Source: Chloranthus sessilifolius
Lineage: Eukaryota; Streptophyta; Magnoliopsida; Chloranthales; Chloranthaceae
Reading direction: 5' to 3'
Assembly: GCA_021018995.1 (NCBI GenBank)
Contig: CM037585.1
Coordinates: 86,528,646 to 86,592,645 of the forward strand
Length of the DNA: 64,000 nt
Positions 27,933-58,632 of this stretch are shown piece after piece (position 1 is the stretch's first letter; the number at the start of each line of letters is the position of its first letter). The notes beneath the pieces are model-generated. The model ran no database searches, was not told where the DNA came from, and worked only from the letters and a program-made list of their open reading frames with translations. The position numbers and the translations under genes are program-made.

Positions 27933-28097
27933 GGAGCATCTATTAGATGCGCCAAACCATTTCTCCCCAGAAATGGCTTGGCGCAACTAATAGTTGCTCC
28001 AACTATAAATGGGTCCCACCTCGAGCATCCAACTTCCTAGGCCACTGTGTGACATTGTTTTATTGTGTATTTGCGTGACGCATCTATTAGTTACATC
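27933..28097. promoter_or_regulatory. Palindrome cassette in U3 of A 5' LTR
   Basis: Three 21-bp near-palindromes at 27933-27953 (TCTA/TAGA type), 27980-28000 (ACTA/TAGT type) and 28077-28097 (decayed). The first two start 47 bp apart. Their 26-bp spacer is itself an inverted repeat, ccatttct...agaaatgg around CCCC. The group lies about 290-450 bp upstream of the LTR TATA box. Confidence 0.85.
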
Positions 28098-28380
28098 AAG
28101 CTTATGAACAGTGACCCTGAGTTTTTGCCTTGAAAATTGAGATTGGGGTTTAACTTGTTGACCATCTTGATCTTTGGGGTGTGTTTTACTAGTTCTGTTG
28201 CACCCATTCCCTATCTATTTGCATCCCTTTAAGTGCTTTAAACCTCTAACCTATCATCCACCATTGGAGCATCTCTTCACATATTTCAAGGCTCCAAAAA
28301 TCCTAGGAAACCTTAGATGGCTAGATTACCTAATTCCTAACCTCGTTTAGTCTCTAAACACCCTCCTAACCTCTCTTTTC

Positions 28381-28390
28381 CTATAAATAG
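28381..28390 (+). promoter_or_regulatory. TATA box of A 5' LTR
   Basis: CTATAAATAG followed by AGAGGCACCCC. The same sequence is at 50547-50556 in the 3' LTR and at 51878-51887 (minus) in the LTR of B, so it is conserved in all three LTR copies. Confidence 0.75.
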
Positions 28391-29107
28391 AGAGGCACCC
28401 CTCCCTTTACAAAGGCTTGAAAAATTTGCAAAAATAAGAGATTAATGAACCCCCTCTCTCTCTCCTCTAGTGCACCTTTTGCATACAAATTCTAGAATTC
28501 TCAAACTCCCTTTGAGACCCAACCTTTCATCCAAAAGCTCTAGGTTAGGTGTGTGCGACCCCATAGCCTTCTCTCTCTACCTCTTAGCTATCAAGCCCTA
28601 GGAGCTAGAATCCCATTTCTCACCATACAAGCCATTGAAGCTCACCAAAACAAGCCTAAGCAAGTTCCATAGCGGTGCAATAAGGGCCCGAGAGCTCCGA
28701 TTCTCCCTTCTATTCCTCTACCTTCTCGGTTCTCCCTCCATCCTCTCATTTGTGCCTTTACGTCGTCAAATTTTTGGTATGAATGGAGGGGCACAAATAG
28801 AATTTTAATGCCCCTTGGGCAAAAGGAAGACCTTTTTGCCTTTTTTATTTTATTTGTGTTTTGGCCATAAGTAGAGACCACATTAAGGAGGTTGATTGGG
28901 TGCCTAACACCTTCCCAATCGATAACCGAAGCCCCTACCCAAGAGCCTTTGGCGTAGTCCGGATTCAGAGTCAATTTTTGGTACTGCGGTGCTCTTTAAA
29001 TTTTATTTGGGTTTCTCGGGACACCAAAAGCTCTGGGTGGCGACTCTATAATTTTAAGTGTGCACATCTTCGTGACGGGATTGTCTCGATTCCCACGGTT
29101 GCACAGA

Positions 29108-29125
29108 TGGCGACTCTGCTGGGGA
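29108..29125 (+). promoter_or_regulatory. Primer binding site of element A
   Basis: TGGCGACTCTGCTGGGGA, 2 bp after the LTR. This wording is that of Tat/Ogre elements, reported to pair with tRNA-Arg. An extra TGGCGACTCT lies 70 bp upstream inside the LTR (29038-29047), and B keeps the same internal copy (51215-51224, minus). Confidence 0.82.
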
Positions 29126-30460
29126 GTAGCTAGTAGAGCTTACCCTCGAATTTTGGTCATTTTCTTTGAATTTACTAACCTTGTTCCGTTTTATTGCTTT
29201 TTGTTACTCACCCCTCCGATTATGTCATTTTACTCACCCTTGCTTTTATATCCTTTATGAGCCTTAGCCGATTGGCGGGCCTACTTGCGCACCATCTTAA
29301 ATTTTTTTACATTTATGTCATTTTAAGTACCTTAGCTGAATGACAGTCTATTTGTGCATTGTCATTTAATTTTCTTTACCTTTACGTCATTTTAAGTGCC
29401 TTAGCTATTTGGTGGGCCTACGTGCGCACTTACATTTCTGTAATCATATCACAAATAGTGGATGCCAGTCCGTAGAGGCGGCACGGGATCACCCCTTGTC
29501 TTTGAACTCTAAGCAAACTCCCTTTAAAAGTGAAAATTAAAATTGAACCAACAAGAGGGACTTAAATTGATTTTGCGGGATAGATTTTTGCGGGTTGGGA
29601 TATTTAGGGACACACACAAATTCTCAGGTCTTAGTACGGTGGCAACCCCTAGTGGTGATGATCCAGAAAAGTCCCAACCCACCTAGTACCAGAGAAAGCG
29701 CTTGCGCTTGAGGTATATCAAGTGGGTAACCTTCTCGTTACCAAGCTTAAAACTTGGGGAAAAGTGAGCGTTAGCGGAGCTGCACCGGCCTTGTAAACCC
29801 TTAGGATCGGTGAGGAAAGAGACGGATCATAAACAATCCATCCCCGGAAGCATAGCTTCTAGAAAAACTAGGTTAGAAGACTCATTTTAGGCTGAAAATC
29901 CTGCCATCAAGTAGTCTGGAGGTTTCTTTTTGCCTTGCGCCACTAATACATGCGCCAAGGCAAAATTCCCCAGAAATACACTGGCGCATGTATTAGTTGC
30001 ACCAGCTTTATTCTGGGCATTTTTGGTCTGGCGCACTTAATAGTCGCACCAGCCTTGTGTTAGATAGCAGCATCTCGAATCTATGGCCTGTTTCACATCC
30101 CAGACTCCCCGATTAGTATTTTTAGTGTCTCTGTTTGGGCCCTGCAACTTTCGACACCCAATACGCCCTCGCCGGTCAAGAGAAGGTTACTTCTTTTTTA
30201 CTCATTCCGAGGGATCAGGTTGTTTGCATTGGTTTCCATGCCTTTAATAGATCAAGGGGTTTCCCTTTGATTCTTTTGAAGCATTTCGAAGCCTTTGTTG
30301 CAAGACCTATTTAGGGTACGAGAGCCACCCAAAAAGGGAATTCAAAAGACCCCGAAATCCTTAAATCTTTTCACTTATAAAAATTCAAAAAAAAAATTAA
30401 AATAAAAAATTCTAAAAATAGAGTTTTGTTAGTGTTAGCACAACGACATCATCGTACCCT
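29126..30460 (+). other. 5' leader of element A
   Basis: About 1.3 kb without a supported ORF. 29260-29435 holds about three units of a repeat built from 'ccttagc', 'gggcctacktgcgcac' and 'cattttaagt'. 29934-30050 holds a palindrome cassette. The region just before gag is A-rich (30380-30420). Whether the leader hosts a second promoter or RNA structure is open. Confidence 0.6.
29934..30050. promoter_or_regulatory. Palindrome cassette in the leader of A
   Basis: Near-palindromes at about 29936-29956 (decayed), 29983-30003 and 30030-30050; the last two start 47 bp apart as elsewhere. Arms are mixed types (TGTA on one side, TAGT on the other in the second copy), so these copies are more eroded than those upstream of the antisense genes. 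About 410 bp upstream of the gag frame. Confidence 0.75.
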
Positions 30461-31384
30461 TTGTCATCCCGTAGGGGAAGGAGGAAGCTTTACGAGCCCT
30501 ACCTGAGGCACCCGTACCCTACCCGACACCAAGCCATGTCGTGGGCTATGGATCTGGCCTATGCCGATCCCAACTCATCCCCACCGCATTCCCCAACCCA
30601 TTCTCATGTGGAAGAAATTTTCGCATCAATCCCCCTCACACAATCACCCTTCACCATTTCCGGCCCGTTCGGCGCCCCCATCTTTCCATCTACCACCTCC
30701 CAAAATATCCAAAATCCAACCCCCCATTCCCCATTTTTACAAGCCATGCCTTCATCCATGGCCATTCCTAACCCATCTCACCTTCCATCCACACCCATTC
30801 AAAACCCGGCTGGATCCTCCACCTTCACCAATATACCCTATTTTTCATCCGCCCGATGCATACCCAATCCACCCACATCTATCCATGCCGCATCCAATCC
30901 CCCATATATTACTCCATCTACCCAAGTCATGCCCATTTTTTTCGAGGCCATGACTAGCTTTCCTCTCTCATCCATGCCCCATACATCCTCCCCACACATG
31001 CCCAATCCGTCCCCATTAACCAATGACCCATCTTATTTTTCTAACCCACCCCATATCCCACCACTTACCCGGGTCATGCCCGATTTTATCAGGGCCATGC
31101 CCAATTTTTTCTCCTCATCCACCCCATCCATGCCCCTCCAACCCTTAAATACCCCATCTCCATCCGATCTCCTTTCCGTGGCCATGATGGAAGAGATGGT
31201 CCAACCCTACACTAGGTGGAAGGCCTCCCAAAATATCCCCTCTCATCCACACCCCACATCCATGGATCCTTCTCATACCCTATCTAGCCTTCATGCCTCA
31301 TTCTCCCATGACCCCCATCATCCATACCATCCAAACCCCCATTACCCGCCTTCCCCAAGGCCCAATGGCCCAAAACCCCACGGA

Positions 31385-31625
31385 CCATACCACCAATGGC
31401 CCATGGCCCAGACCCACCAATGGTCCATGACCCAGACCCACCAATGGCCCATGGCTTAGACTCACCATGGGCCCATGGCCTAGACCCACCAAGGGCCCAT
31501 AGCCTAGACCTATCAAGGGCCCATGCCCCAAACCCATCAAGGGCCCATGGCCCAAAACCACCAAGGGCCTATGGCCCAGACCCCCCAAGGCCCACTGGGC
31601 TAGACCTATCATGACCAAGGCTTTA
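31385..31625 (+). repeat. 24-bp coding minisatellite in gag of A
   Basis: Units around 'accaagggcccatggcccag' encode an 8-residue repeat (HQGPMAQT and variants). Four units have TAG for CAG at the same codon: 31457, 31481, 31505 and 31601, spaced by 24 or multiples of 24. Confidence 0.88.
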
Positions 31626-33420
31626 TGGCCCAACCTCCGCAAGGACCCATGGGCCAGGCCTTTATAGCCCCCTCCCAAGGCTTCACGGCCCAAACCCAAG
31701 CCCAGCAAGGCCCTAACCTTGGAGCCTCACACCCATACCCTTCACAATTCCTCTAAAATTTCACTCACCCACAACCATCATATCCTGCTCAAACCCATAC
31801 GTTACATCAACCTCAATTCACCCACATCCCTACATCCCAAAGTCAGCTCCAAACTCTTCCCCATACCCAATGACCTCATCAGACCCAACCCTAAAATCAG
31901 ACTTCCACTCATCCCATCACCCAACAAACCTTCCCTCACATTCAATGGACTCACCCAACCCTCATTTAGACCATTCCCATCCAGTCCATGCAACACCAAC
32001 AAGAGAATCTCGCCCTCATTGCACCTTATGTAGATCAGCAATATGAAGAGGAAGAGATTAGGAACAATGGCGCTTATGTGGGGGCATTGGCAAGCATTAA
32101 TCCCCCTCCAATAATTACTCACCCCTTGATAGCACAGAGCGAGTCCCGACCGACTGCTAAGAAAGTGGCCCCCATGTCCAAGGAGTCAGAGCAGTTGAAA
32201 GAACAGTTAGACAAAATTCAGAAGCAGTTGTTGAAGATGGGTGGCGCTGAAATCCACGCCATGGACTTCTCGAATTTGTGTTTGTTCGCTGAGGTCCCCT
32301 TGCCTCCAAAATTTAAAATGCCGGCTTTCGACAAGTATAACAACATCGGCCATCCCATAGCACAACTTAACTCTTATTGTGGCGATATGTGCCAGTATGG
32401 AGGGGACAAAAGACTATTAATAAAAGTCTTTCAGAAAAGTTTCACTGGTCCAGCCTTGAGGTGGCTCACGCCCTTAGAACCATCTATGATAAAGACCTGA
32501 AAGGACTTGACGCATCTATTTCAAGAACAGTATGTCTACAATATAGACATTGAACTGCGCAAGTCAGACTTGGCTCGTTTGAAGCAGAAGCAGAATGAAA
32601 CCTTTAGCGATTATTTAGGGCATTGGAGAGCATTGGCAGCTTAGGTTAGAAACATGATACCTGATGATGAACAAATAGAAATGATTTTTAAGAACACTTT
32701 GCCAGTGATCTTAGACTTTCTAGTGTACCAGCAGCAGTCTAGCTTTGCTAATCTGGAAAGGAACGCCAATCACTGTGAAGATGATATCAGGAAAGGTCAC
32801 TTGAGAAAAATTGTACCCGAGGGAGCTAGCGGAGTTAGAAGATTTTTCTAGCAGCAGAATGAGGGCTGATATCCATAACAGTTCCAACACCAGGCCCAAT
32901 AATAATATAATCCCGTTCCAATTTAAGGTGGCCCAGCCAGCACCAGACAGAACTGAGCCTATGCAGAGAACATGGAATGGACAGGGGATGCAGATGACTT
33001 CAAAGCCAAGGAGAGCCCGCTACGATTGAGTTTTTATGCCCTTGGGGAAATCTTTGAATGTACTTTTACCTTTGCTAATAGAAAAGGGACTAGTTTCTGC
33101 CCTTCAACCGCGACCTCCTCCTAATCCGATCCCGAAGAACTATGTCCCCAACACTCACTATAATTTTTATCAAGGTCTGGGTCACCCGACTGATCGTTGC
33201 TTCCCATTAAAGCATGCGATGCAAGATTTAATTGATGTCGAGAAAATCATTCAACTTACACCTTCTCAAGTGAACCGGCATGCAAATATACATCAGGTGC
33301 CTTTACCCCCACACCCTACCAGAGGAGCAGGTCTCAGACCTACCATCGGGACGATGGAGGAATGTGAGGAAGCATTTGAGTTTGACCTATCGAACTACAT
33401 CAATGACCGGGGAGAAAGAA

Positions 33421-33550
33421 GTATTGGAGTGATTGAACCCTTGAATTTCTCAGATTATTTTCCCATCCCAGCATCCCAAATTGAAGTATTGGAGTGATTG
33501 AACCCTTGAATTTCTCAGATTATTTTCCCAACCCAGCACCCCAAATTGAG
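33421..33550. repeat. 65-bp tandem duplication in gag of A
   Basis: 33421-33485 is repeated at 33486-33550 (both start 'gtattggagtgattgaaccc'), with a few substitutions near the ends. A 65-bp insertion shifts the frame by two. Confidence 0.93.
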
Positions 33551-42612: not shown

Positions 42613-44132
42613 TCAACGGCCCAGCTCACGCTTCAAGGCACTAATCTCCGCAAGAAAACCATCCTCCCGAACATTCCGCTCAGTCAGCCAGCGGTCATGA
42701 ATGCTCTTATACCTCTTTCGAGAAGCATCGGTAGCCCCAAGAGCAACATTCAAGGCTCCTTTCAGACGAAGGACCTCACTCTCAGCTGTGTCAGCTCTGG
42801 TCTCTGCTACCTCTACTCTAACTTTCTCTTATGCCAAAAGCTCTTGTAAGACCCTCTTCTCATCGGTCAACAGCTCAATGCAAACTCGAAGCACCATCTC
42901 CTTCTTCGGCCAGGGCCCTCCCATATCAATACTCTCTGCTTGATCCAAATGATCAGTAGCAAGCTGCTCAGTTGATAGCCAAGCCTCGTACTCTGGAAAA
43001 GACTTAATTGAATCTCCTTGCTCCAAATCACGAATTAGCATCGACTGACGCGTCTCTCAAAGAGCAACAATTCGATCTTAGTTCCCAGAAGACCCCCTAG
43101 AAAAGATCAAATCACATAGAAGGGGTTTTGCCTTGTAAGGCACCTGCTGAGAGCAACCGAATTGACGCAACACCCGGAATGGGAAGTAGAAGGTGCTGCC
43201 AGTCAATCTTAAGAGGGTGATGCCCTCATGATTTCTCAAGTAAACTACTGGAAAGGTCCAATGCTACCAAGGGAGTCTCCATACTAGCTCTGCATCAGTT
43301 AGCCAAAGCTTTAACTTTGTCAAATCCCCCTATGGAATCATTTGACACCTGCCCAGAAAGCATCAGACCACCTCACCTCGAACAACATAAAAGTGAGGCA
43401 CGGGTCCCAAGATAGTGAGGTACTCATCTAACCAGACCTGGAGCAGTAAAGGACATCCCCTGAGGCTCTCTACCTTGCCCAGAGTGAATGCGTGAAGGCA
43501 CTAGTATAGTTTAGCAAGGACCAGATGCATCACTGATCGTCCTTCTTCCAACTTAGTCAAAATGTCGCAGAGAGCCAAAGAGAAACTCTCGCCCCCAGTG
43601 AAGAAAAGGACTTTCGAGATGAGATTGAGAGCAAAGTCTTTCAAGTTGAGGATGTTCCTAACCAGCAATTTTTGAAGACTTTCGTCACCGAAAAGTTCTT
43701 TGAGGAATTTAATCGAACACCTTGTGGCCCCCCCGATGAGACTTTTCTCAATTTAGATTTCTTCAAGCCCAGGGAGAGGTGAATTGCCTTAGCATAGCCA
43801 GATTTCGGCATGACTCTTGCAAGGCCTCTGTGGAGCTTCAAGCCTGACAGAGTGGACAACTCTTCAAGAGTAGGAGATAGTTCTCGCTTTCCAAAATGAA
43901 ATACATGGGCATTTGCATCCCAAAACGAGGTCGACGCATGATGTAGGTCCCACCATGGAGGAACCTCAAGAAAGAAGGAGAGACGGGATAGTCCAAGCCT
44001 CTCTAAATCAACGAGCTCGCTCTCATTCAGGCTTCCAAGCCAACCTTTTAGAAAATTGGGCCCCAGGCCCAAAGAAGGGAGTAAATTGGTTTCAGGCCCT
44101 CCATGTAAGGGAGGGTTGGAAAGTGGGTCCAT
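42613..44132 (-). pseudogene. Antisense gene beta of A (DUF7745-like, coiled coil)
   Basis: ATG at 44132 opens MDPLSNPPLHGGPETNLL. The N-terminal domain has SLNESELVDLERLGLSRL, then FWDANAHVFHFGKRELSPT and LEELSTLSGLKLHRGL, a pattern I associate with DUF7745-type plant proteins that grade into PMD-like sequences. The middle reads LGKVESLRGCPLLLQVWL and LTGSTFYFPFRVLRQFG. The C-terminus is a coiled coil (CIELLTDEKRVLQELLA, SEVLRLKGALNVALGA), ending at a TGA read at 42613-42615. It looks single-exon. Frameshifts near 43700 and 43500 and several stops break it. The same gene is in B (58768-60253). Role unknown; TE-borne PMD relatives have been proposed to affect silencing, which I only note as an idea. 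Confidence 0.7.
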
Positions 44133-44266: not shown

Positions 44267-44368
44267 CATATAAAGGGCCCACTGCCCCCAGGCTAAACCT
44301 GGCGCATGTAATACATGCGCCAGTGTAAATTTCTCTAGAATTAGCTTGGCGCATATAATACCTGTGCC
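44267..44368 (-). promoter_or_regulatory. Promoter of gene beta (A): TATA plus palindrome pair
   Basis: On minus, palindromes at 44348-44368 and 44301-44321 (starts 47 bp apart) are followed by TTTATATG at 44267-44275 and the ATG at 44132. The 44301 copy is a perfect palindrome of TGTA/TACA type, arms GGCGCATGTA and TACATGCGCC. The distance from palindromes to TATA is about 30-90 bp. Confidence 0.82.
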
Positions 44369-44775
44369 AAACCAATCTACCCCTTTTCCATGCAAAAAAT
44401 GGAGCTTTTAAGGGGATTTTGTGTGTATCTTTGTTGGACCCCTTAGCCAATTTGCCTGATTACCTATATTTTATACCTTGACTACATTTGAAATGCACCT
44501 AATATTGAAATCATTTAAATTCTATGCAAGAAGAACCCACACTAAGACGTACAGCCTCAAGGGCCATTTTTACAAGCAATCATCAAAGCCATCCTACAAG
44601 CAATCGACTACAATACAAAGGAAATATAGCAAGCATAGAAAAAGAGAGAGCTCTAAAAAAGCTAAAAGTCATCTCAATCAAATGAAAAAGTGCCATAATT
44701 ATCTGTTACAAATTATTTAAATTCCAAGAATATCATCCCAAAGTGTTTGAGAATGTCAAAATGCAGAAACTAGGC

Positions 44776-47241
44776 CTAATCCTTGCTGGCACCCTTTGAC
44801 TTCTTTCGCTAGCGCGAGGAGCTTTGAAAGGTCCGCATATCTCCTACTCGGGACCATGCCTGTGAAAGCCGACTAAGTAAAGAGCGCGATTCTTTGTCAC
44901 GTGCACGCTGCAAAACATATCCGAGGTCACCAATCAGGACCAATTGCGAGATAAAAATAGTAAAGCAGTGAGGGGAAACCGGTCGTCATGATACTCACCA
45001 TTTCCACATCCCAGAGATCAGCGATGTTGCGGTAGTACGCTGCATGGTCCATGACTGACTCAAAGTTCTACATTCAGAGGAAGAAAGATGTCAGTTACAG
45101 GGATTATTAGCAAACACAAGCATTTCTCAAAGGAGCGGAGGATTGATCATGAAAAGTCTTACCCTCGGAACTACCTCAAGAAGAGGAACCCGAGCTGCAT
45201 TAGCTGAAAGGTGGGCCTGCCTATCTACATTGATGCATAGATCCGAGAGAAAACCGTCGTCAAGGTGCCTAAAGGTCCCATGAACCATAGCAAGTGCACC
45301 ACCCAGCGCACCCATGGGAAAAGAGCCTGAAGGACCGACACCTGAAGGACCAGCACCTGAGGAACAAACACTTGAGGAACCCACACTGAAAGGACCAGCA
45401 TCTGAGGGACCTACCTCTAAAGCATTAGCAGTACCCGTCACCGCTCCACCTTCATCATCTGAATCACCTTCCTGGACAAATTGTGAAAAAGATAGAGATT
45501 TCCTTAGTAGAAATAAAAGTTGAATTAAAGCCGAAAGGGGACCAATCTAAAAAAAAAAAGAGAACTACTTGTGAGCGTGGGCTGCCAAAAGCCAGGAACC
45601 CCCAGGGACAAAGCGCGGAATAATAAACCGATATGGCAAAGACTCGTACCACATCCAATAGTCTTTAGGCATAAGAAGGGCATTGATGGGGATCCCATTT
45701 TGAAGGAAGGCTGCAGTAAGCTCCCCAATACTACCCACGGGATCCATGACGCCTGTGGGAGGGTCCAAGTGTATGGCAGGGTAGCCCTGGTACTAATGAA
45801 CTACCCGCTCTCCCAAGTAGTAGGCCTTGGCCCATGCCCCATAGAAAAAGACAATGCGGCGGTTGTTGAAAAGGCGAGATGGACCTACAGCAGCCCGATC
45901 CCAAAAAGGAGAGCTAATGTAACGGTCATATATGACCTACCCAAGTCAAGAAGTAGCCAATCAGTCAAGAATGAAGCATAATAACAAAGGATAATTTCTT
46001 AACTGAAATAAACAGAGGGGGAAAGGCCTTACCTGCTCGAGGATCATCAGATCGAATTAGGACCTCAGGCCCATCTCCAGATGCTTCATGCCCACATCTC
46101 AGCGCCGATGTTTGTTCCAGTTGCTCAAAAGTGGATAGGTATATATTTCGGAGTGAAGAAGCGGGTGTCAGGGTTGAAAATGAAGATACCCCCATGCCTG
46201 AAGAGAGCAGTGCATAAAAGATAAGTTAGAAGCAGACAATGACTATCCAATGAGACTTATAAAAGCAAAAGAGTTGAGAGATTACCTCCAGAATAGACCA
46301 AAATCCAACAACGAACTTCGCATTTCCCACAGAGGCTCCGACTAGGCTGGACATCAACACAACATAACCGGCCCCGCCCCAGTCGTATCTATGAATGTCA
46401 GCCAATTATCCATCAGGCTAAGCAAGCTCAGGTTGACCCGTCCAATCGCTAGCATTAGCAAAGAGGGTTTTGCCCAATATTATGAGGAGTGTGATGCGGG
46501 CCAATATGATTGCACGCTCAGGCGTAATATAAATTTGAACATCTGGCTGTCCGAGATCTACTAACTCATGCAGCCCAATAAGATCAGATAGCGAGGTCAT
46601 CTTAACCTCGGCATCATGCCGACTGGGGGAGGGGGGATAATCCCCTATCAATCTGATGATCTCATCTCAGCTGGGCCCTGCTAGGTTGGCTATGGAACGC
46701 CCTCTACATTGATACCTGTAATCATAGTCCAATCCACGAGCGTTAGGGTCATCTCAGCAAAGGCCATATGGAAGGACAAGGTCTCTGGGTGAAATCTCTC
46801 ACCCAGAACTCTCAGATATGCTGCATCTACCCTCATGGCGGGGCATGACAAGAACTCTCCAAAGCTAGCCTGCTCGAGCAAATACTTTACAACGGGTGGG
46901 ATATAGCGGTAAAAGTCCTAAAAATCTAACCAGCCCCCTCGGAATTCAATGTGGGGCAAGTCCTGCGTCAAAGAGAAAGATGCATCCGGTCATGGAAATA
47001 GAGCAAAACCGCACAGGAAAAGAACTGAGCCTATCTTTTTACCATGCTAGCAATGCCAAAATTTGAAATATGCGTGTATTGATGGTGAAGAAGACCGGTT
47101 CGGGCAGCCTCACCCTGCATCTCATGCCAAGGACCAGCAGGATGTTCCACTACTACGAATTGCTCTCCTTGAGGACCGTAAACCACTTTTGGCCCCTCTT
47201 CCTATTCTTCCTCTTGCACGTACTCCTCGTCGTTCGACATT
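44776..47241 (-). pseudogene. Antisense gene alpha of A (plant mobile domain, 7 coding exons)
   Basis: Exons on minus with GT-AG borders: 47241-47043, 46962-46286, 46197-46033, 45936-45569, 45471-45163, 45067-44999 and 44907-44776. ATG at 47240 (MSNDEEYVQEEE). Exon 2 carries the PMD signature (YLRVLGERFHPETLSFHM, AFAEMTLTLVDWTMITGI). Exon 4 reads FYGAWAKAYYLGER and DYWMWYESLPYRF. Exon 5 is a Gly-Pro-Ser repeat (SGVGPSG) followed by FLSDLCINVDRQAHLSA. Exons 6-7 are a short charged tail ending KKSKGASKD. PMD proteins such as MAIN and MAIL1 act in the nucleus in silencing and genome stability. TE-borne copies are known, but their role is unproven. Stops (for example in exons 1 and 2) make this copy inactive as read. 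Same exon plan as B. Confidence 0.82.
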
Positions 47242-48131
47242 CTGGGGCCAATACAATCAATCATATCAGGGCAGATCAATAATTGGAAATCATGATGCTG
47301 CAGGCCAAGGGAAGGTAAGTATGTTCTTTCTTTTGCTTATGTTAAAAAAAACAAAAAAAAAAACCCCTTTCTTTTTGTTTATAAACTCAAAAAAACAAAA
47401 ATAAAACCAAAAAAATCCCTGTACTTTGCTTATAAAATCAAAAATAAAAACAAAAAAATCCCTCTCTATTTTGTTTATAAATTCAAAAACAAAACGAAAA
47501 AAATCCCTGTACTTTGCTTATAAAATCAAAAACAAAAATAAAAAATCCCTTTCTAATTTGTTTATAAAATCAAAAACAAAAACAAAAAAATCCCTATTTT
47601 GTTTATAAAAATCAAAAACAAAAACAAAAAATCCCTTTCTTTTTGTTTATAAAATAAAAAAAACAAAAACAAAAAAAGTCCCTTCCCTTTGTTTACAAAA
47701 ATAAAAAACAAAACCAAAACCAAAAAAATCCTTGTACTTTCCTTATAAAATCAAAAACAAAAACAAAAAAATCCCTTTACTCTGTTTATAAAATCCAAAA
47801 AAAAACAAAAAAAATCCCTTTACTTTATTTATAAAATAAAAAACAAAACCAAAAAAAAATCCCTTTACTATTATTTGCAAAAATAAAAACAAAAACAAAA
47901 ACAAAAACAAAAATCCCTTTACCTTATTTACAAGCATAAAAACAAAAGAATAGATTTATGTCCTAATAAAATCCATAAAACAATAAAAAATATAGGGCAT
48001 CATTCAATAACATCAAACTCATCATCAATAAGCATGCTTACAATGAAAATAAACCATTTATCATCTAAAAATTGCAAGAACATGATCACATTTGCAAGAA
48101 AAATCAAATAAAATGGGTTTTAAATGGTTAC
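47242..48131 (-). repeat. 5'UTR intron of gene alpha (A), filled with a minisatellite
   Basis: The donor follows TCTTCAAAG at 48132 (minus), the acceptor is GGCCCCAG just before the coding exon at 47241: 890 bp. Between about 47340 and 47935 it holds about 13 tandem units of 41-53 bp built from 'tccctttactttgtttataaaat' and 'caaaaacaaaaa' (plus strand). On the sense strand the intron is therefore strongly T-rich. B's intron (54720-55745) is T-rich with less regular units of the same type. Confidence 0.75.
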
Positions 48132-48341
48132 CTTTGAAGAAAAGTGGGTCTTTGATCTAGCGCAGAGCGGGCGATTAATCGACGCAAGCAAATACCGGCA
48201 ATGAAGCACGCTTAGAGGCAATGTAAAGGAACCCTAGGAGGAGGTTTATTTTCGGTTTAGAAGAAGGGGGGAGAGAAAATTTTGAAAACACTACTCTTTT
48301 GCCCAAACTTGAGTTCTTTAAAATGATCCCCGACCATTCTT

Positions 48342-48409
48342 GGTGCATGTATTACATGCGCCAGGCTATTTCGCCCCCCAGTTGGCTTGGCGCAACTAAT
48401 AGTTGTGCC
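48342..48409 (-). promoter_or_regulatory. Palindrome pair upstream of gene alpha (A)
   Basis: Palindromes at 48342-48362 (TGTA/TACA type, one mismatch) and 48389-48409 (ACTA/TAGT type, one mismatch), starts 47 bp apart, about 210-280 bp upstream (minus) of the 5'UTR splice donor at 48131. No clear TATA was seen. Confidence 0.8.
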
Positions 48410-49750
48410 AGATCACTTTTGGGATGGCTTTTGGGCTTGGTGCGGGTCACATGCATAGCTTGGTACCCCTTCTCTTTGTTTTATTGTCCCGGCCGGTGCA
48501 CATGCTCCCAAATGATATGCCGATCCTCATTTGGCTTGCCCAGAAAGTTGTTCTAGAGTAAATGGATCGAGATCGAGGAGCATGCTCAAAGAATCCCGAT
48601 CAGACACATAAAGTGATATCTTTGAAAAACCAAAAAATCACATAAAAAAGATAGCTTTGAAAAACTAAAAAATCACATAAAAAAGATAGCTTTGAAAAAC
48701 CAAAAAAATCACATAAAAAAATAGAATAATTCACGTAAAATGATAGAATAGCTTCACATAAAATGATAAATAAATTTCCAAAAATAATTCACATAAAATA
48801 ATAAAGAAAATCCCAAAAATAATTCACATGAAATGATAGAATAGCTTCACATAAAATGATAATGAAAATCCCAAAAATAATTCACATGAAATGATAGAAT
48901 AGCTTCACATAAAATGATAAAGAAAATCCCAAAAATAATTCACATGAAATGATAGAATAGCTTCACATAAAATGATAAAGAAAATCCCAAAAATAATTCA
49001 CATAAAATAATAGAATAAAGTGATAGATTAAAAATCACATAAAATGATAACTCAAAATCCAAAAAATCATCATAAAAAGATAACTTAAAATTCAAAAAAT
49101 CATATAAAATGATAACATAAAAAGTCAAAATTTTCTCACATAAAATAACCAAAAATATGTGTTTTGAAAAGGCGACACGTGCTCCCAAAAAGCGATGCGA
49201 CATCTATTCGCTTCACTTGAGAAGTCGTGCTAAATAAACTTCGGGATCAATGGGTTCGCCCAAAGACCTTGAACCCTGCTTCAAGTAGGGGCACCCACGA
49301 CCAGTCAAATGGGGCAATCAATGCCTCAGGGGATTAAGGCGCAAACTATGGAACCTTACATATTTTTGCTTTGCGCCTATCTTTAAGTGTGGGTCGATCA
49401 CCCCTCTTACTTATGAAGCAGTGATATTCAGAATGAATCTCGAACTTCAATCACCTTCAAATCATCTCGATAAGCTGACATTTTTTTCGACAAACCGGCT
49501 TTCGCAACTTGAGAAGAAAACATTTTTCCCAGCAATTGGGCTTCCGCAACTCATTCAACCTCAGTTATGCCCAGTAATGTTGCTAAGTGCTTGGGGACCG
49601 ATTATCTTGAGAAACAGATGTTTTTCCCGACATACAGGACTTTCGTTTTCTCACCATGTTACTCACCCGATGTTTGAGGTTCATTTTGAATACAGTGGAC
49701 CCATCAGTAATGTCTTGGGCCTCTTCGGATGTCCCTTTTCTTTGGCATTC
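48410..49750. other. 3' noncoding region of A with 58-bp tandem repeats
   Basis: No ORF supported. 48600-48720 has 'gatagctttgaaaaac' repeats. 48763-49020 has 58-bp units (starts at 48823, 48881 and 48939) with 'cacatgaaatgatagaatag'. From 49180 on it matches the corresponding stretch of B (52790-53340, opposite strand) and leads to the 3' LTR. The polypurine tract that B has at 52776-52788 is missing here. Confidence 0.7.
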
Positions 49751-51154
49751 GAGCTTTTGATGGCATGTATGAAACCCTTAAGAACCTTTCTGAACCTTTA
49801 GGAGCCATCCCAAACCCTTAGAAATCATCCTAAACCCCTTAGAAACCGTCTCAAACCTTTAGAAACCAATCCCGACCTTTAGAACCCATTTTGAACCTAA
49901 ACCTGACTTTTTTGGGTAATGGATGATGAGTGGTGCATCGGGACTAGCTGAGATCTTCTACTATAATCAAATTTTATTCTATTAAAAAGTAAAGTTCCCA
50001 GCTTTCCAACAAGCCAAGAGTCGCCCCGATCCGAGCTGTACATCAAAAGATATGACATTCTGAACTTTAGGATTTCAGGGTAGGACCACATGAGATTTGG
50101 CGCATCTATTAGATGTGCCAAGCCATTTCTCCCCAGAAATGCCTTGGCATAACTAATAGTTGCGCCAGTTATAAATGGGTCCCACCTCGGGCATCCAACT
50201 TCCCAGGTCACTGTGTGACACTGTTTTACTGTACATTTACCTGACGCATCTATTAGTTGTGCCAGGCTTATGAATAGTGACTCTGGGTTTTTGCCTTGAA
50301 AATTGAGATTGGAATTTGATTTGTTGACCATCTTGATCTTTGGGGTGTGTTTTGCTAGTTCTGTTGCACTCATTCCCTATCTATTTGCAGCCCTTTAAGT
50401 GGTTTAAACCTCTAATCTATCATCTACCATTGGAGCATCTCTTCACATATTTCAAGGCTCCAAAAACCCTAGGAAACCTTAGATGGCTAGATTACCTAAT
50501 TACTAACCTAGTTTATCCTCTAAACACCCTCCTAATCTCTCTTTTCCTATAAATAGAGAGGCACCCCTACCGTTACAAAGGCTTGAATAATTTGCAAAAA
50601 TAAGAGATGAAGGAACCCCCTCTCTCTCCTCTAGTGCACCTTTTGCATACAGATTCCAGAATTCTCAAACTCCCTTTGAGAACCAACCTTTCACCCAAAA
50701 GCTCTAGGTTAGGTGTGTACTACCCCCTAGCCTTCTCTCTCTACCTCTTAGCTATCAAGCCCTAGGAGCTAGAACCGTATTTCTCACCATACAAGCCATT
50801 AAAGCTCACCGAAATAAGCCTACGCAAGGTTCCACAACAGTGCAACAAAGGCCCTAGAGCTCTGGCTCTCCCCTCTATTCCTCTACCTTCTTGGTTCTTC
50901 CTCCATCCTCTCATTTGTGCCGTTACGCCACCGAATCGGTAGGAGCGGAGGGGCACAAATAGGATTTTAACACCCCTTGGGTAAGCGGAAGACCTTTTTG
51001 CCTTTTTTATTTTATTTGTGTTTTGGCCATAAGCAGAGACCACATTAAGCGGGTTGATTGGGTGTCTAACACCTTCCCAATCAGTAACCGAAGCCCCTAC
51101 TCAAGAGCCTTTGGCGTAGTCCAAATTCAGAGTCAATTTTTGGCACTTCAGTGT
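49751..51154 (+). repeat. 3' LTR of element A, truncated at both ends
   Basis: Matches 27590-28990 of the 5' LTR. The first 65 bp or so, including TGTAGAC, are absent: the sequence jumps from internal 'tttggcattc' (49750) straight into 'gagcttttgatggcatgtatg'. The end stops at 'ggcacttcagtgt' (51154), where B's LTR begins; about 110 bp of LTR end are missing and should lie beyond B. Palindromes at 50099, 50146 and 50243; TATA at 50547-50556. Confidence 0.92.
50099..50263. promoter_or_regulatory. Palindrome cassette in A 3' LTR
   Basis: 50099-50119 (TCTA/TAGA), 50146-50166 (ACTA/TAGT) and 50243-50263. Spacings of 47 and 97 bp are identical to those in the 5' LTR, with the same inverted-repeat spacer around CCCC. 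Confidence 0.85.
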
Positions 51155-52775
51155 TGTGCAACCGTAAGATTTTGATAATCCCGTCGCGGCAATGCGCTCT
51201 TTAACAAAACATATAGAGTCGCCACCCAGAGCTTTTGGTGTCCCAGGAAACCTATATCATTTTTATAAGCACCGAAGTACCACAAATATGACTCTGAATC
51301 CAGTCCACACCAAAGGTTCTTGGGTAGGGGCTTCAATTATCGATCAGGAAGGTGTTAGACACCCAATCAACCTGCTTAATGCGGTCTCTACTAATGGCCA
51401 AAATAAAAATAATATAAAAGAAAAGAAAATGGCTTCCTCTTACTCAAAAGGGCTTAGAATCCTATTTGTACCCCTCCTTTCCTACCAAAAATTCAGTGGT
51501 GTAATGGTACAAATGGGAGGATGGAGGAATGACCGAGAAGGTAGAGGAATAGAGGGCAGAGCCAGAGCTCTCGGGCCCTTGTTGCACTATTGAGGAGCCT
51601 TGCGTTAGCTTGCTTTGATGAGCTTTTGAAGGTTTATATGGTATGAAAGGGGGTTCTAACTCTTAAGGCTTGAAGCTAAGAGGTAGATAAGGAAGACTAG
51701 GGGATCACACACACACCTAACCTAGAGGTTTTTAGTAAAATACTAAGGTTTAAAGGATTTTTTTAAATTCTGGAATTTGTATGGGGATGGTGCACCAAAG
51801 GGAGAAAGATCTTCTCACTTAAGCTCTTTCTCTCTTAGGCAAAAATTCTCAACCTTTAATCCAAGGGGAGGGGGGTTCTATTTATAGGCAAAGGGTGGGT
51901 TAGGAGAGTTTTTAGATCCTAATTGGGTTTAGTAATTAGGTAATCTAATATCTAAGGATTCCTAGGGTTTTTGGAGCCTTGAAAGATGTGGAGAGATGCT
52001 CTAATGGTGGATGATGGCGTGAGGCATTAAACCACTTAAGGGGTTGCATATAGATGATAAAAGGGTGCCACAGAACTGGAAAAATACACCCCAAAGGTCA
52101 AGGTGGTTAACAAGTCAAACCCCAATCACAAAATTCAGGGCAAAAACCAGAGGTTACTATTCATATGCCTGGTGAAACTATTAGTTGCGTCAGGCATATG
52201 CACAGTAAAAACAGTGCATATACAGTGCCTAGAAGTCAGCTCCCAGAGGTAGGGCCCACCTTAATGCTGGCACAACTATTAGTTGCGCTAGGCTTAATTT
52301 GGGGAGAGATGGCTTGGCATAACTAATAGTTGTACCAAGCTTACTTATAATTGGCGCAACTATTAGTTGCACCAAATCCCTAAGGGGGCCACTTGAAATT
52401 ACCTCTTTGCCCCTCGGGTTCAGACCGCCATATCTTTGCGCACACAGCTCCGATTGGGGTGATTCTTGGACCGTTGGAAAACTGACGACTTCTAATTTTC
52501 AATGGTATAAGATTCAATCATAGTAGAAGGCCGTAGCTAGTATCGATGCACCACTCTTCATCCATGGCTTAGGAAAACTAGGTTAAGGTTCGGAACGGAT
52601 TCTAAGGGTCGGGATTGGTTTCTAAAGGTTCGGGATGAATTCTAAGAGATTTGGGATGATTCCTAAGGGTTTAGGAAGGTATCTAAGGGTACCATACATG
52701 CCATTAAATGCTCAGAGGCACGCCTCTCACAAAATGTGTTTCGATCGGGCCTTGGGCTAAATTTGAGTGTCTACA
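51155..52775 (-). repeat. 3' LTR of element B (1,621 bp)
   Basis: On minus it starts TGTAGACACTCAAATTT at 52775 and ends CGGTTGCACA at 51155. Nearly the same length as A's 5' LTR. TATA on minus at 51878-51887. Four palindromes at 52171-52373, one more than in A. It contains the internal primer-site-like AGAGTCGCCA (51215-51224, plus). Confidence 0.93.
52171..52373. promoter_or_regulatory. Palindrome cassette in U3 of B LTR
   Basis: Near-palindromes at 52171-52191, 52269-52289, 52316-52336 and 52353-52373. The 52269/52316 pair (47 bp apart) and the 98-bp step to 52171 mirror A's LTR. The fourth copy at 52353 is extra. All four are ACTA/TAGT type, whereas A's first copy is TCTA/TAGA. Confidence 0.83.
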
Positions 52776-52788
52776 GATGCCCATCTTC
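52776..52788 (-). promoter_or_regulatory. Polypurine tract of element B
   Basis: Minus strand GAAGATGGGCATC directly before the LTR start TGTAGAC. It is the expected plus-strand primer position. The matching segment in A has been deleted. Confidence 0.65.
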
Positions 52789-54443: not shown

Positions 54444-54512
54444 GGCGCAACTATTAGTTGTGCCAAGCCAAAAGAAGGCCTAAAATGGCTTGGCGCAACT
54501 AATAGTTACGCC
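54444..54512 (+). promoter_or_regulatory. Palindrome pair upstream of gene alpha (B)
   Basis: 54444-54464 and 54492-54512, both ACTA/TAGT type with one mismatch each; starts 48 bp apart. The spacer begins AAGCC and ends GGCTT, complementary ends as in the LTR spacer. Gene alpha's 5'UTR exon follows and ends at the donor after 54719. Confidence 0.82.
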
Positions 54513-54719
54513 AGGCATGGCCAGGGAGCAAATTTAAACAGCCCAAGTTCGGGCAGTCACCGTGTGTTTTCAAAACTGCTCTCTTCCCCCTCTAAACTAA
54601 AAAACAGAGCCTCCCTAGGGTTCCTTTATATTGCCTCTACGTGTGCCCCATTGCCGGCATTTGCTCGTGCCGTTGGATCGTCCGAATCACGCTAGATGAA
54701 AGACCCTTTTTCTTCAAAG

Positions 54720-55745
54720 GTAACCATTAAAAACCCATTTTATTTGATTTTTCTTGCTTTTTCTTACAAATATGATCATGATCTTGCATTTTTAGATGAT
54801 AAATGATTTATTTTCGTTGTAGGCATATTTATTGATGATGTGTTGATGATTTTTTTGTGAATGATGCCCTATTTTTGTTGTTTTATGAGTTTTATTAATG
54901 CATAACATATATACATATTATATATTATTTTTTTTGTTTTTATTTGTGCATATGGAAAGGGTTTTATTTTTCTTTTTTTGTTTGTTTTCTTTTTTTTTTG
55001 AATAAAAGGCAAGGATTTTTTTGGTCTTTTCCATCTCTTTTTTGAAGATTAATTAAGGGAAATGGTAAATGATTTTTGGCTTTTGGTTTTTTTTTTTTGA
55101 AAACTACCCAAGGCATGGATTTATTTTTTGTTTGTTTTATAAAAAGAAGGGAATTTTTTTTGTTTTGTTTTTTGTTTTTTTTTTTGTTTTTAGTTTCTAC
55201 TCTTTTTTTTTATATATATATATGGACCTAAGGAAATGACTTCTTGTTGTTTTTGTTTTTGTTGTTTTTTATTTTATTTTATGGACAAAAGAAGGGATTT
55301 TTCTTTGTTTTAGTTTTTTACAAACATAAAAAGAAGAATTTTTTATATATATTTATTTATTTTTAGAAAGGATTTTCTTATGTTTCTAAACATAAAAGAG
55401 GGATTTTTTTCTTTTGACTTTTGTTTCTCTATAAGAGGACTTTTTGGTTTGCTTTGGGTTTTGATTTTTTAGGAGCCTGGAGAAACGACGGTGATGATGA
55501 TTTTTTTGTATTTTAGCAGGCTTTATTTTCAAACATAAAAAGAAAGGTTTATTTCTCTTTTATTTATTCTTGGAAAAGAGGAGGGATTTTTTTTTTTGCA
55601 TTTTAAATCTAAAGGGAATTTTTTTGTGTATCTTTATTTTCTGAAAATGAACAAAACGTGGGAGAGCATACTTACCTCCCCTGGCAGTGTAGCATAGAGT
55701 GGTTCTTTATCACTGATCTGCTCTGATGTAATTGTTTTCTGTTAG
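54720..55745 (+). other. T-rich 5'UTR intron of gene alpha (B)
   Basis: Donor CAAAG|GTAACC at 54720, acceptor TTTCTGTTAG at 55745, 1,026 bp. Long runs of T with 'tttttgttttt' and interspersed 'aagaaggga' blocks, the degenerate counterpart of A's minisatellite. (TA)n near 55211-55222. No ORF. Confidence 0.7.
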
Positions 55746-58128
55746 CCCATGATGTCCGGTGATGATGAGTATGTTCCCGAGGAGGGTCATGAGGAGGGGC
55801 CCGAGATAATTTATGGTCCGCGGGGGGAGTAATTCCTCTGGGTAGAGCGAAGAGCGGGCCCTTGGCTCGAAATGTAGGGCAAGGCTGCCCGGGTCGGCCT
55901 CCTACATCAACAGTTTATTCATATTTTGATTTTTGGCATAGCAGGCAGGGTAAGAGACGTGTTCAAATTTTCCTTTGCACATTTTAGCTTTATTTCCAAG
56001 ATTTGATGCACTTTCCTTTGGATGCAGGACCTCCCCTCCATCGTATTCCGCGGGGCGTGGCTGGATTTTCATGATTTCTACCTCTGAAGGCATTGATTGA
56101 GCATTTCCGCCCTAAGACGATAGCCTTCCATATGCCGTATGCTAATATGGCCTTGACGCCTGTTGATTGGGCAATGATTACTAGCATCAGGGTGGGGGGC
56201 ATGCCGATAGCTAGTCTCGTAGTGCTGAGCAAGGAGGACATCATCCGGATGATAGGGGCGTATCCCCCCGTGGTTAGATACATGGCACCGAGGTCAAGAT
56301 GACCTGGTTATCCGCACTCTATACGACTGAGGAGTTGGTGGATCTGGGGCAGCCAGATATGGTGCTTTATATTATGCCCGAGCGGGCAATCATCTTGGCC
56401 TGTATCACTCTCCTGCTCTTGTTTGGTAAGAACCTTTTTACCAATGTGAGCGGTGGCTGAGTCAGCCTAGTGTTGCTAAGCGTTATGAAAAATTGGGGCG
56501 ACGTCCATAGGTATGATTAGGGTGGGGTTGGATACGCATGGTTGATGTACGACGTAGCCGGGCCACCTTCGGGGAGGCTAAATCCGTCGTTGGCTTTTGG
56601 GCGGCACTGGAGGTAATCCCCTACCTTTTGCTTTTATTAGCTCTTTTGGATGATCCTTATGTGTTACTGACTTGGTCTCTTACACACTGCTTCCTCTTAG
56701 GTATGGGGGTACCACCACTTTCATCCTGGGCGCCCGCTCCCCCACTCGAATGCACTCACCTAGCCTCTTCTGAGCAACTGGAACCATGTTCAGTGCCGTG
56801 ATGTGGGCCTGAAGCACCTAGAGATGGGCTGGAGGTCGCAACTTGACCTGATGGTCCCTAAGTAGTTAAAGCCCTTTCCAACTCAGTTCACTTTAACTCA
56901 AAAATCCTCCCTAATTGGCTATGCTGCTTGTTTGATTGATTGGTTGTCTCTTGACTTGGACAGATCCTCCATGATCCGTACCTCAACTCTGCCTTGTAGG
57001 ACCAGGTAGCCGTAGGTCCATCGCGCCTTCTCAACAACCGCCGCGTTATTTTCTTTTATGGGGCGTGGGCGAGGGTCTACTATTTGGGGGAGCGGGTGGT
57101 GCACCAGCATCAGGGTTATTATGCCATACCCATGGACCCTCCTGCCGATGTCATGGGTCCTGCCGGTAGCGTTGAGGAGCTCATAGCGGCCTTCCTCAAT
57201 AACAGGTTCGCCATCAACGCCCTTCTTGTGCTTGGAGATTACCACATATGGTACGAGTGCTTGCCATATCGGTTCATCCTGCCACGCTTCATCCCTAGCA
57301 CTAACTTTCTTGCATTTGGCGGCCCACGTGGGCAGGTAGCTCTCCTTTCCCTTTTTCAGATTAGTCTCCTTGTATTTTAATTTGGCCCTTATTCTTTCTG
57401 AGTAGATTTTCATTTTGTTCACAGTTTGCTAAAGGGGATGACTTGGATAATGAAGGCAGGGCTGCGACAGGTACCGCTGATTCCTTAGGGTCAGGTCCTT
57501 TAGGTGAGGGCCCTTCTGGGGTTGGTCCGTCTGGTGAGGGCTCATCCAAAGCGGGTCCCTCCGGAGCTGGTCCGTCGGGCATCTCTCATGCAGGTGCTCC
57601 TGGTGGTGATCCGATTGTGGTCTACAGGACTTTTCGATGCCTTGATGATAGCTTTCTCTCGGGCTTGTGTGCCAATGTGGACAGGCAGGCGTGTATCTCT
57701 GCTGAAGCAGCCCGGGTCCCTCCTCCTGAGGTGATCCTAGGGGTAAGCCCTCTGACAACCCGTCTTTCTTTTATTTCAGCCTCCTTTTACATATGTTTTA
57801 TGATTGTCCTGATAGCCGATGTGGTGTCCCTCTGAATGTAGAAATTTGATTCGGCTGTGGAGTATGCGGCGTATCATCATAACATTGCAGAGCTTCGGGA
57901 TGTGGAGACAGTGAGTATTCTGCTGCTCTGCTTTTCCTGTGTGTTCCACCATTTTTTTGATTGGTCCTGGTCTCTGATTTTGGATATGACTTGCAGCGTG
58001 CACATGCTAAGGAGTCGTGATCTTTGCTTAGCAGGATTTCTCAGGCTTGGTCTTGGGTGGGAGATATGTGGACATACCAGGGCTCCTGACATCAGCGGAA
58101 GAAGTCAAAGGGTGCAGACAAGGATTAG
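55746..58128 (+). pseudogene. Antisense gene alpha of B (plant mobile domain, 7 coding exons)
   Basis: Exons 55746-55949 (ATG 55749, MSGDDEYVPEEGHEEGPE), 56028-56612, 56701 to about 56865, 56964-57334, 57425-57742, 57842-57910 and 57997-58128. The PMD signature is in exon 2 (FRPKTIAFHMPYANMALT, DWAMITSI). Exon 2 lacks about 130 bp present in A, covering the segment before this motif. Exon 4: FYGAWARVYYLGERVVHQ, DYHIWYECLPYRFILPRF. Exon 5: Gly-Pro-Ser repeats, then LSGLCANVDRQACISAEA. Exon 7 ends KSKGADKD, then TAG, as in A. Exon 3's donor reads GTAG|TTAAAG where A has GCAG|GTAAGG, so it is lost. There are stops in exons 1, 2, 3, 4 and 7. It transcribes towards integrase, convergent with pol. 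Confidence 0.82.
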
Positions 58129-58529
58129 GCCTTAGTTTCTTTATTCAAACATTCTAGCACTTTTGAGACGACTTTATTGGGATTTTTTGTTTGTAACTGA
58201 TATTTATGGCACTTTTGGGATGATGTTTTGCTTGGATATGCTCAGCGTCTCTCTTCGACTTGCAATGTTATCTCTTTCTTGCATATACCCTACTGTTTAC
58301 AGGAAGATCCTTGATGATTGCTTATAAAAAGCAGCGCTCGATGCCACATGTCTTGGCGAGAGTGTCTCCTGCATTAAAAGTGAAATTATTGCAATGTTAG
58401 GTGCCCTGTTAATTTCTTAGGTGCAACATAAAGCATGTGAATCAGGTCAGTAGGTTAAGAAACTAGCAACGGCTCCCCAAAATCCCAAAATTTTGAAAAA
58501 AGGAAGGCATGGAGGGGGGATTTTGTGCT
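58129..58529. other. Spacer between genes alpha and beta of B
   Basis: About 400 bp, no ORF. It contains the 3' flank of alpha and leads to the palindrome pair of the beta promoter. Confidence 0.5.
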
Positions 58530-58632
58530 GGCGCAACTATTAGTTGAGCCAGGCAATAATTTGGGACAAATGCACTGGCGCAACTAATAGTTGCGCCAGT
58601 TTTGGCCTGGGGAGCTGTGGGTCCTTATATAC
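58530..58632 (+). promoter_or_regulatory. Promoter of gene beta (B): palindrome pair and TATA
   Basis: Palindromes at 58530-58550 (one mismatch) and 58577-58597 (perfect, arms GGCGCAACTA and TAGTTGCGCC around one A), starts 47 bp apart, then TTATATAC at 58625-58632 and ATG at 58768. The layout matches A's beta promoter, but the arms are ACTA type here and TGTA type in A. Confidence 0.83.

Follow-up and report, generated by a model that had tools for sequence, protein, structure and literature searches.

Do the short paired palindromes that recur at the long terminal repeats (LTRs), the leader and two antisense genes (alpha and beta) of a plant retrotransposon serve as operators, and which protein would read them? 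The question is raised by a 64,000-nucleotide stretch of Chloranthus sessilifolius DNA (the window), in which two elements of one family, A and B, carry such sites. The pairing is real and is larger than a preliminary description had stated. We favour the reading, drawn from sequence, that a dimeric DNA-binding protein uses the sites as operators, and that this protein is most probably one encoded by the element itself, namely the plant mobile domain (PMD) proteins alpha and beta, at a probability of roughly 0.55. The features concerned are as follows.

27524..29107, + strand: 5' LTR of element A; TG...CA ends by eye, followed by a PBS-like sequence
27933..28000, + strand: U3 cassette of A, a palindrome pair at 47 bp spacing around an inverted-repeat spacer
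28077..28097, + strand: third U3 site of A, 97 bp past the second site and ~285 bp upstream of TATAAA
29936..30050, + strand: leader array of A, three sites with spacings of 47 and 47 bp
43641..44132, - strand: beta of A, antisense; the stretch still open in a copy that appears broken, assigned to PMD via its L019 relative
44301..44368, - strand: cassette upstream of beta of A (beta ATG at 44132)
45400..48341 (approximate), - strand: alpha of A, antisense, decayed, probably with introns
48342..48409, - strand: cassette upstream of alpha of A
50099..50166, + strand: U3 cassette of the 3' LTR of A, with a further site at 50243
52171..52373, - strand: U3 array of the 3' LTR of B (sites 52171, 52269, 52316 and 52353)
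54444..54512, + strand: cassette upstream of alpha of B, 48 bp spacing
54513..57835 (approximate), + strand: alpha of B, antisense to B, decayed, probably with introns
58530..58597, + strand: cassette upstream of beta of B (beta ATG at 58768)
58768..59343, + strand: beta of B, partial open frame

Element and encoded proteins

The element was matched to RVT_1 (E = 8e-27) and Integrase_H2C2 (E = 3.2e-5, just below the family cut-off); an RVT_3 match upstream of H2C2 may be RH or aRH. With LTR repeats, RT and integrase, it agrees with the Ty3/gypsy Tat-Ogre lineage, and the extra PMD ORF of that lineage was found above the cut-off in the related loci L016 and L019 and below it in the window pieces. 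According to a published figure, 57% of Ogre elements carry an extra PMD ORF.

Matches to PF10536 (PMD; cut-off 34.9) reached 60.4 bits for alpha of L016 and 51.3 bits for beta of L019. In the window, one piece of alpha of A matches PF10536 below the family cut-off and beta of A has a weak DUF7745 match; the alpha and beta copies here appear broken, with their own Pfam matches below cut-off, which counts against the operator reading. Values of dN/dS were low (0.07–0.19 for alpha pieces and 0.13–0.38 for beta pieces), with several dS values near saturation and no significance test. Homologues of alpha and beta were searched for in a large protein set, with none at E 0.001, and a search of solved structures for beta gave none that was relevant; the structure model of beta had a mean pLDDT of 33. 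The PMD proteins of the alpha and beta copies are a plausible class of regulator, and both their matches above the cut-off and their low dN/dS count for the operator reading.

Palindrome sequence and copy number

The motif, previously described as 21 bp, spans 23–25 bp, YTGGCGCAACTAWTAGTTGCGCCAR. An unscored T lies immediately 5' of the 21-mer in 121/126 sites and an A immediately 3' in 125/126, and because both are nearly universal the minimum length of the palindrome is 23 bp. The window was scanned with a 21-position consensus score at a threshold of 17; sites scoring 14–15 were left uncounted since shuffled sequence attains such scores. Twenty near-palindromes had previously been described as confined to A and B: the confinement stands, all strong copies lying within 27933..58597 inside these elements, and their number is corrected to 21. 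Ten first-order shuffled windows yielded one site scoring at least 17 in total.

In the host genome (2.17 Gb), exact GGCGCA-N9-TGCGCC occurs 14,997 times, against once for the reversed control, and TTGCGCCA-N10..40-TGGCGCAA pairs number 6,204 versus 0 for the control; this census counts for operators. The AG/AG combination of half-sites accounts for 119 sites in the genome-wide count. The palindrome was absent from the viral contigs searched.

Pair spacing and spacers

All eight pairs of the preliminary description were recovered. Seven are 47 bp apart (27933/27980, 29983/30030, 44301/44348, 48342/48389, 50099/50146, 52269/52316 and 58530/58577) and one, 54444/54492, is 48 bp apart. The leader of A holds a triple instead of a pair, 29936 joining 29983/30030. 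Additional LTR sites were located at 28077, 50243, 52171 and 52353, and spacings of 37–38 and 97–99 bp therefore occur as well. The genome scan for paired palindromes that had been proposed (search open to spacings of up to 63) gave 47 or 48 bp in 41 of the first 50 distinct close pairs of the listing, every one of which comes from contig C1: the spacing was 47 in 20, 48 in 21, 37–38 in five, and 33, 46, 49 or 50 in the other four. Within copies, the 47-bp interval proved no more constant than arbitrary 47-bp intervals (median 0.92 versus 0.91), so descent accounts for part of the constancy; this counts against operators.

Motif and spacing are the same at four places in the element and the spacers are largely different, which counts for operators; between LTR and alpha spacers there is some likeness. 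The spacer in the LTR of A (U3 cassette 27933..28000) is itself an inverted repeat, as had been noted. This property is clearest in the LTR and in some alpha cassettes, but most leader and beta spacers did not stand clearly above shuffles.

Linkage to the family and placement at presumed promoters

Linkage was assessed in the 22 loci met successively along contig C1, with 34 listed pairs lying outside these loci. All 101 sites in the 22 loci fall in, or at most 250 bp from, the LTR (59), leader (31), alpha (six) or beta (five) of the family; none was nearest to gag or pol or in unassigned DNA, which counts for operators. The operator-like module attributed jointly to the LTR, the leader and both antisense genes is family-specific in the loci examined, and its positions correspond between copies that have diverged.

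Inspection by eye shows TTTATAT or TTATATA 3' of the beta cassette in 4/4 copies and TTTAAA 3' of the alpha cassette in 4/4 copies, both of which count for operators. Counting against them, a strict TATAWA scan matched two of four beta stretches and none of four alpha stretches, and in alpha of L016 about 60 bases separate the TTTAAA from the nearest preceding full site. When alpha-family copies were picked by protein alone, strong sites were found at the expected distance in four of six, the remaining two being without a site in the stretch examined (a point against operators); among 15 other PMD genes, none had a site scoring at least 16 (a point for them). The derivatives L005, L013 and L022 keep their LTR sites although neither alpha nor beta was matched from the post-pol region to the LTR (no blastn match over 1–2 kb of unmatched DNA), which a trans-acting factor would allow.

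Conservation and symmetry

Motif columns are slightly more conserved than others (0.81 versus 0.75 in the LTR and 0.77 versus 0.72 in the leader), with a majority base of 84% on average for LTR columns. Individual sites vary in conservation between the top 8% and the lower half; this and the small margin over other columns count against operators. The two half-sites are of equal type in 89/126 sites against 73.9 expected and a maximum of 86 in 10,000 shuffles, a comparison uncorrected for shared ancestry. In LTRs, AC/AC has switched symmetrically to TC/TC in both LTRs of A, to AG/AG in L008, L010 and L024, and to GG/GG in L014; in L024, L014 and both LTRs of A the next site remains AC/AC. The agreement of half-sites and these switches count for operators. 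Against operators count the LTR of L017, where symmetry is broken (CG/AG, TG/AC and TC/TG), the ambiguous homology of the single LTR site of L010 and a consistent asymmetry in several leader sites. Whole units have been gained and lost in the arrays.

Proposed mechanism and alternatives

Under the operator reading, the palindromes would work at the DNA level. A dimer would recognise a pair of inverted half-sites, each roughly YTGGCGCAACTA, that flank a TA-W-TA core. Such sites, 47–48 bp (sometimes 37–38 or 97–99) apart, lie upstream of the sense promoter in U3, within the leader and, for each antisense gene, immediately upstream of its likely core promoter. The likeliest reader would be alpha, beta or both, acting in trans and on their own promoters, and the family might thereby keep itself transcribable through activation or protection from silencing. 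Dimer binding, the identity of the binder and the direction of the effect are the steps that we infer.

A host transcription factor, for example a cell-cycle factor, could instead bind sites that the element has collected to ride on host expression; we regard this chief rival as rather unlikely. The E2F consensus is TTTSSCGS or WTTSSCSS. The outer GGCGC arms resemble E2F sites, but just 13/126 sites contain the former and 18/126 the latter, which rejects or at least weakens E2F identity, and a near-invariant TA-W-TA core within a 23–25 bp dyad is unlike E2F. Amplification of E2F sites by plant transposable elements has a precedent reported in a review, and the case for an element-encoded binder is itself inferential. 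Host binding is further opposed by the upstream stretches of three host-type PMD genes, which are without the site, and by a second PMD-encoding repeat family in the same genome, which has other repeated motifs upstream of its PMD (CACCCAC arrays and an inverted pair of AGTACCTTTAAATCCAC).

More generally, and tentatively, Gypsy-encoded PMD proteins may be self-encoded retrotransposon regulators, each PMD-carrying family having its own promoter-arrayed operator and protein and operator co-evolving, here with the palindrome of A and B as against the motifs of the second family.

The palindromes could also form RNA hairpins in element transcripts, serving in dimerisation, packaging or as small-RNA precursors. 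Six of six folded stretches (five cassettes and the leader array) beat nearly all shuffles (z -2.5 to -12.9), and the leader and 3' U3 would be part of the genomic RNA; any palindrome, however, folds by construction. Arm substitutions in element sense comprise 51 C>T and 51 G>A (32 and 23 at CpG), and because this lacks a wobble bias the structured-RNA alternative raised earlier is weakened. With symmetric changes confined to the single 21-bp site and none across the cassette, cassettes upstream of the likely alpha and beta core promoters, and no match in an Rfam search of the window, hairpins are very improbable. We give as little credence to the idea that the array stems from an ancient tandem duplication, spread by copying between element positions, and survives as a neutral, now functionless relic. 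The gain and loss of whole units, the partial likeness of LTR and alpha spacers, and an interval length and raw conservation that hardly exceed background in the LTR and leader would fit a relic; spacers that mostly vary by position around constant palindromes, restriction to four element positions, the symmetric half-site switches and the flanking T and A (121/126 and 125/126 versus the 84% mean LTR majority base) do not. Insertion of a separate MITE-like repeat at several element positions was suggested by the inverted-repeat appearance of the LTR cassette. Unlinked copies, named beforehand as the sign of such a repeat, were sought in the 22 loci and not found; the linkage of 101/101 sites at corresponding places in the family contradicts an independent repeat and makes this explanation negligible.

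Returning to operators read by PMD proteins, PMD genes occur widely among Gypsy/Ogre elements and are related by descent to MAIN and MAIL1, two silencing genes, and the literature examined does not give the function or DNA target of a retrotransposon PMD. A literature search returned no description of the palindrome or of a PMD target in such elements. The present candidate target, with ~15,000 exact copies in one genome and placed at presumed promoters of PMD genes themselves, makes PMD function a simple binding or reporter question. The arrangement suggests that a giant plant retrotransposon may use a protein that it encodes to switch the genes that it carries.

Comparison with known systems

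A 2025 Nature Plants paper by Pelissier reportedly, to judge by its title, belongs to the topic of host PMD proteins and promoter motifs. The host PMD proteins MAIN and MAIL1 interact, and genes depending on them have a promoter motif in common; in the accounts consulted, direct recognition of this DOWN motif by MAIN/MAIL1/PP7L is left as a hypothesis (PMC7156037, PMC9899485). The likeness lies in PMD proteins tied to a promoter DNA motif, but the host system concerns host genes and another motif (CATGCAGTTT in MORC1). No exact CATGCAGTTT is present in A or the examined part of B; places with one mismatch number three in A and none in the examined part of B, a point against operators.

Ogre elements carry PMD eORFs (Neumann 2019, PMC6317226), and the PMD-A1/A2 clades are Gypsy-encoded only (Ikeda 2017, PMC5418596). 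These too are Ty3/gypsy elements with extra PMD genes, but the accounts consulted describe no cis target, whereas the element here has two PMD genes and a common promoter site. The TRP28 genes of Retand are antisense, lie between pol and the 3' LTR and have been proposed to bind DNA in regulation (Vicient 2025, PMC11963269); they resemble alpha and beta in antisense position and proposed role, and differ in protein domain and in that no target motif is given in the account consulted.

VANC21, a protein encoded by a transposable element, binds a repeated motif of its own element (Hosaka 2017, PMC5735166) and, like the motif of MAIN- and MAIL1-dependent genes, is a precedent that counts for operators. 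The VANC/VANDAL anti-silencing system of Arabidopsis MULEs and the element here both combine an element protein with repeated short motifs in the element's own non-coding DNA, and related VANDAL families use different motifs, like the PMD families here. The VANC21 motif is a 9-mer, YAGTATTAY, of which no exact copy occurs in A or the examined part of B; here the site is a palindrome of 23–25 bp with near-fixed spacing, associated with PMD proteins. VANDALs are DNA transposons, whereas the present element has RT, integrase and LTRs and is no MULE. If the operator reading is true, self-encoded sequence-specific control, so far exemplified by VANC in DNA transposons, would extend to LTR retrotransposons of plants.

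Site scoring and census

Sites were scored against the 21-position consensus GGCGCA[AT][CG]TA[AT]TA[CG][AT]TGCGCC, with a threshold in the window of at least 17. Ten first-order shuffled windows together gave one site at this level, and scores of 14 or 15 in the window were disregarded because shuffles attain them too. The window contains 21 sites scoring at least 17, every one within A or B (two related Ty3/gypsy LTR retrotransposons), the confinement that the preliminary description had claimed for its twenty. All eight pairs that it reported were found, but its list was incomplete: a third leader site and extra LTR sites had been overlooked. The neighbouring features are as follows.

Window 51160-52770, reversed: element B at the 3' LTR of A, which it adjoins or interrupts (junction placed by eye)
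Window 48615-49156 and 47391-47947: tandem arrays rich in A/T, those close to the 3' LTR with period 58 and other periods, that in the presumed intron of the antisense gene alpha with period 43
Window 31390-31606: nine-copy tandem repeat of a 24-bp unit; it overlaps the last part of the proline-rich open frame ahead of gag

The 2.17-Gb assembly (32 contigs, window included) contains 14,997 exact GGCGCA-N9-TGCGCC sequences and one match to the pattern written backwards, which served as the control; close site pairs numbered 6,204 versus 0 for the control. The first 50 listed pairs all come from one contig (C1); their spacing was 47 or 48 bp in 41, 37 or 38 bp in five and 51 to 63 bp in none (search range 33 to 63 bp).

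Linkage of sites to the element family

The 22 loci analysed, of about 10 kb each, are consecutive entries on C1 in the list of exact sites, with none skipped and the entries further along left out; each therefore has at least one exact site. When sites fitting 14 or more of the 17 scored positions were counted, 101 of 101 lay inside a blastn match to the LTR (59), leader (31), alpha (six) or beta, the second antisense gene (five), of the family, or no more than 250 bp from one. None was nearest to gag (19.8 kb matched) or pol (7.3 kb matched), and none fell in the unassigned remainder of the 217 kb. Family matches were 64-84% identical to A, and mean pairwise identity was 75% for aligned LTRs and 73% for leaders. 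Alignment of 25 LTRs places the sites roughly 250-600 bases into the stretch, upstream of the TATA box observed in A. A family-wide array of dyads at presumed control regions is real.

Three of the 22 loci (L005, L013 and L022) pass from a post-pol region to an LTR-adjacent region through 1-2 kb that matches neither alpha nor beta, and retain the U3 sites; these derivatives may use a factor in trans.

Motif, spacers and symmetry

The 21-mer is flanked by T and A in 121 and 125 of 126 sites, respectively, neither base having played a part in site finding, and the next positions out hold Y (122 sites) and R (124 sites). T9, A10, T12 and A13 are near-invariant, although all four belonged to the score. 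The LTR spacers are of the type AAGCCATTTCTCCCCAGAAATGGCCT, the leader and beta cassettes have other types and alpha spacers are partly alike; since spacers are mostly position-specific, equal spacing recurs over differing DNA. Two observations count against strong constraint: motif columns barely exceed the remaining columns in raw identity, and in LTR and leader the 47-bp interval shows no extra constancy, arbitrary 47-bp intervals being preserved equally. Each motif carries two CpGs, a dinucleotide that tends to mutate rapidly in methylated DNA; CpG retention at motif columns was 0.70 (LTR) and 0.73 (leader), versus 0.59 and 0.62 at other columns.

Of 126 sites, 89 had positions 7-8 in agreement with their mirror positions, versus an expected 73.9 with shared descent ignored. 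On an LTR tree with arrays excluded, one LTR site has changed symmetrically, to TC/TC in both LTRs of A, AG/AG in L008, L010 and L024 and GG/GG in L014, and its neighbour, where it exists (A's two LTRs, L024, L014), is still AC/AC. Site homology is ambiguous in L010 because that LTR part has a single site, and the LTR sites of L017, sister to L014, break the pattern by being asymmetric. These switches favour a dimer acting at the single site rather than a cassette-length hairpin, and could also stem from copying between arms or between sites. Pairing of the palindromes as RNA gains no support from the arm substitutions, which in element sense comprise 51 C>T and 51 G>A across 120 oriented sites.

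Antisense genes and their presumed promoters

Against the plant mobile domain (PMD; PF10536; cut-off 34.9 bits), the window's alpha pieces from A and B scored 31.1 and 19.1 bits, respectively, both under the cut-off; the beta frames matched DUF7745 alone, weakly. Fuller copies elsewhere settle the PMD identity: beta in L019, open for 430 codons, scored 51.3 bits (DUF7745, 33.9 bits), and alpha in L016 scored 60.4 bits. Pairwise dN/dS was 0.13-0.38 for beta pieces (up to four copies) and 0.07-0.19 for alpha pieces (four copies each, one pair incomputable), as point values with some dS near saturation. By eye, TTTATAT or TTATATA follows the beta cassette by about 20-30 bases in four of four copies (two of four in a strict TATAWA scan), and TTTAAA follows the alpha cassette in four of four (about 60 bases on in L016; none in the strict scan), with a conserved stretch resembling an intron donor beyond it.

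PMD loci chosen independently of the motif

Fifteen control genes were drawn from 128 PF10536 matches, about every third from the fourth onward. None of them had a site scoring at least 16 within 3.2 kb upstream (two sites scored 15, as expected by chance), and three host-type PMD genes had none scoring at least 15 in 3.2 kb. Strong sites were present in four of six alpha-family copies, sampled from 150 listed hits and fetched at the expected distance. The control loci show only slight similarity to the window, the exception being L027, with a match of more than 1 kb to the pol DNA of A and B. Loci L028-L040, outside the window, represent a second family of PMD-encoding repeats, which resembles A and B little in DNA sequence; upstream of PMD it carries repeated CACCCAC, some forming the palindrome CACCCACWTAWGTGGGTG, and an inverted AGTACCTTTAAATCCAC pair. 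Within the first 2,250 bases fetched per locus, 13 of the 15 loci have CACCCAC at least once and 12 at least twice, with up to 10 copies per locus versus shuffle means of 0.04-0.18. Inverted AGTACCTTTAAATCCAC-like pairs 73-83 bp apart occur in nine of 15 (at most four mismatches; a raw count with seeds from these loci). Such arrangements at other PMD loci suggest that each PMD repeat family may have its own operator; 11 of the 15 share long mutual DNA matches, and the loci, being related, are not independent.

Interpretation and comparison with known systems

The best reading, to which we give a probability of roughly 0.55, is that the sites serve as operator for a dimeric regulator, the PMD proteins of the element itself being the likeliest candidates. 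PMD protein-DNA motif modules are reportedly the subject, going by its title, of a 2025 paper in Nature Plants.

In the portions of the sources drawn on here, host PMD proteins are linked with a promoter motif (PMC7156037, PMC9899485), the PMD-A1 and A2 clades are encoded by Gypsy elements only (PMC5418596) and 57% of Ogre elements carry a PMD (PMC6317226); excerpts from PMC9289625, PMC13317346, PMC13409832 and PMC6419827 were also drawn on. AG/AG-type sites (e.g. L010 3907) include AGTATTAC, which by eye matches eight of nine positions of YAGTATTAY, given in an excerpt on the VANC system (PMC5735166) as the motif of VANC21, the anti-silencing protein of Arabidopsis VANDAL transposons; this resemblance is probably chance. 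Antisense genes, like alpha and beta here, are described for Retand elements in the part of PMC11963269 consulted.
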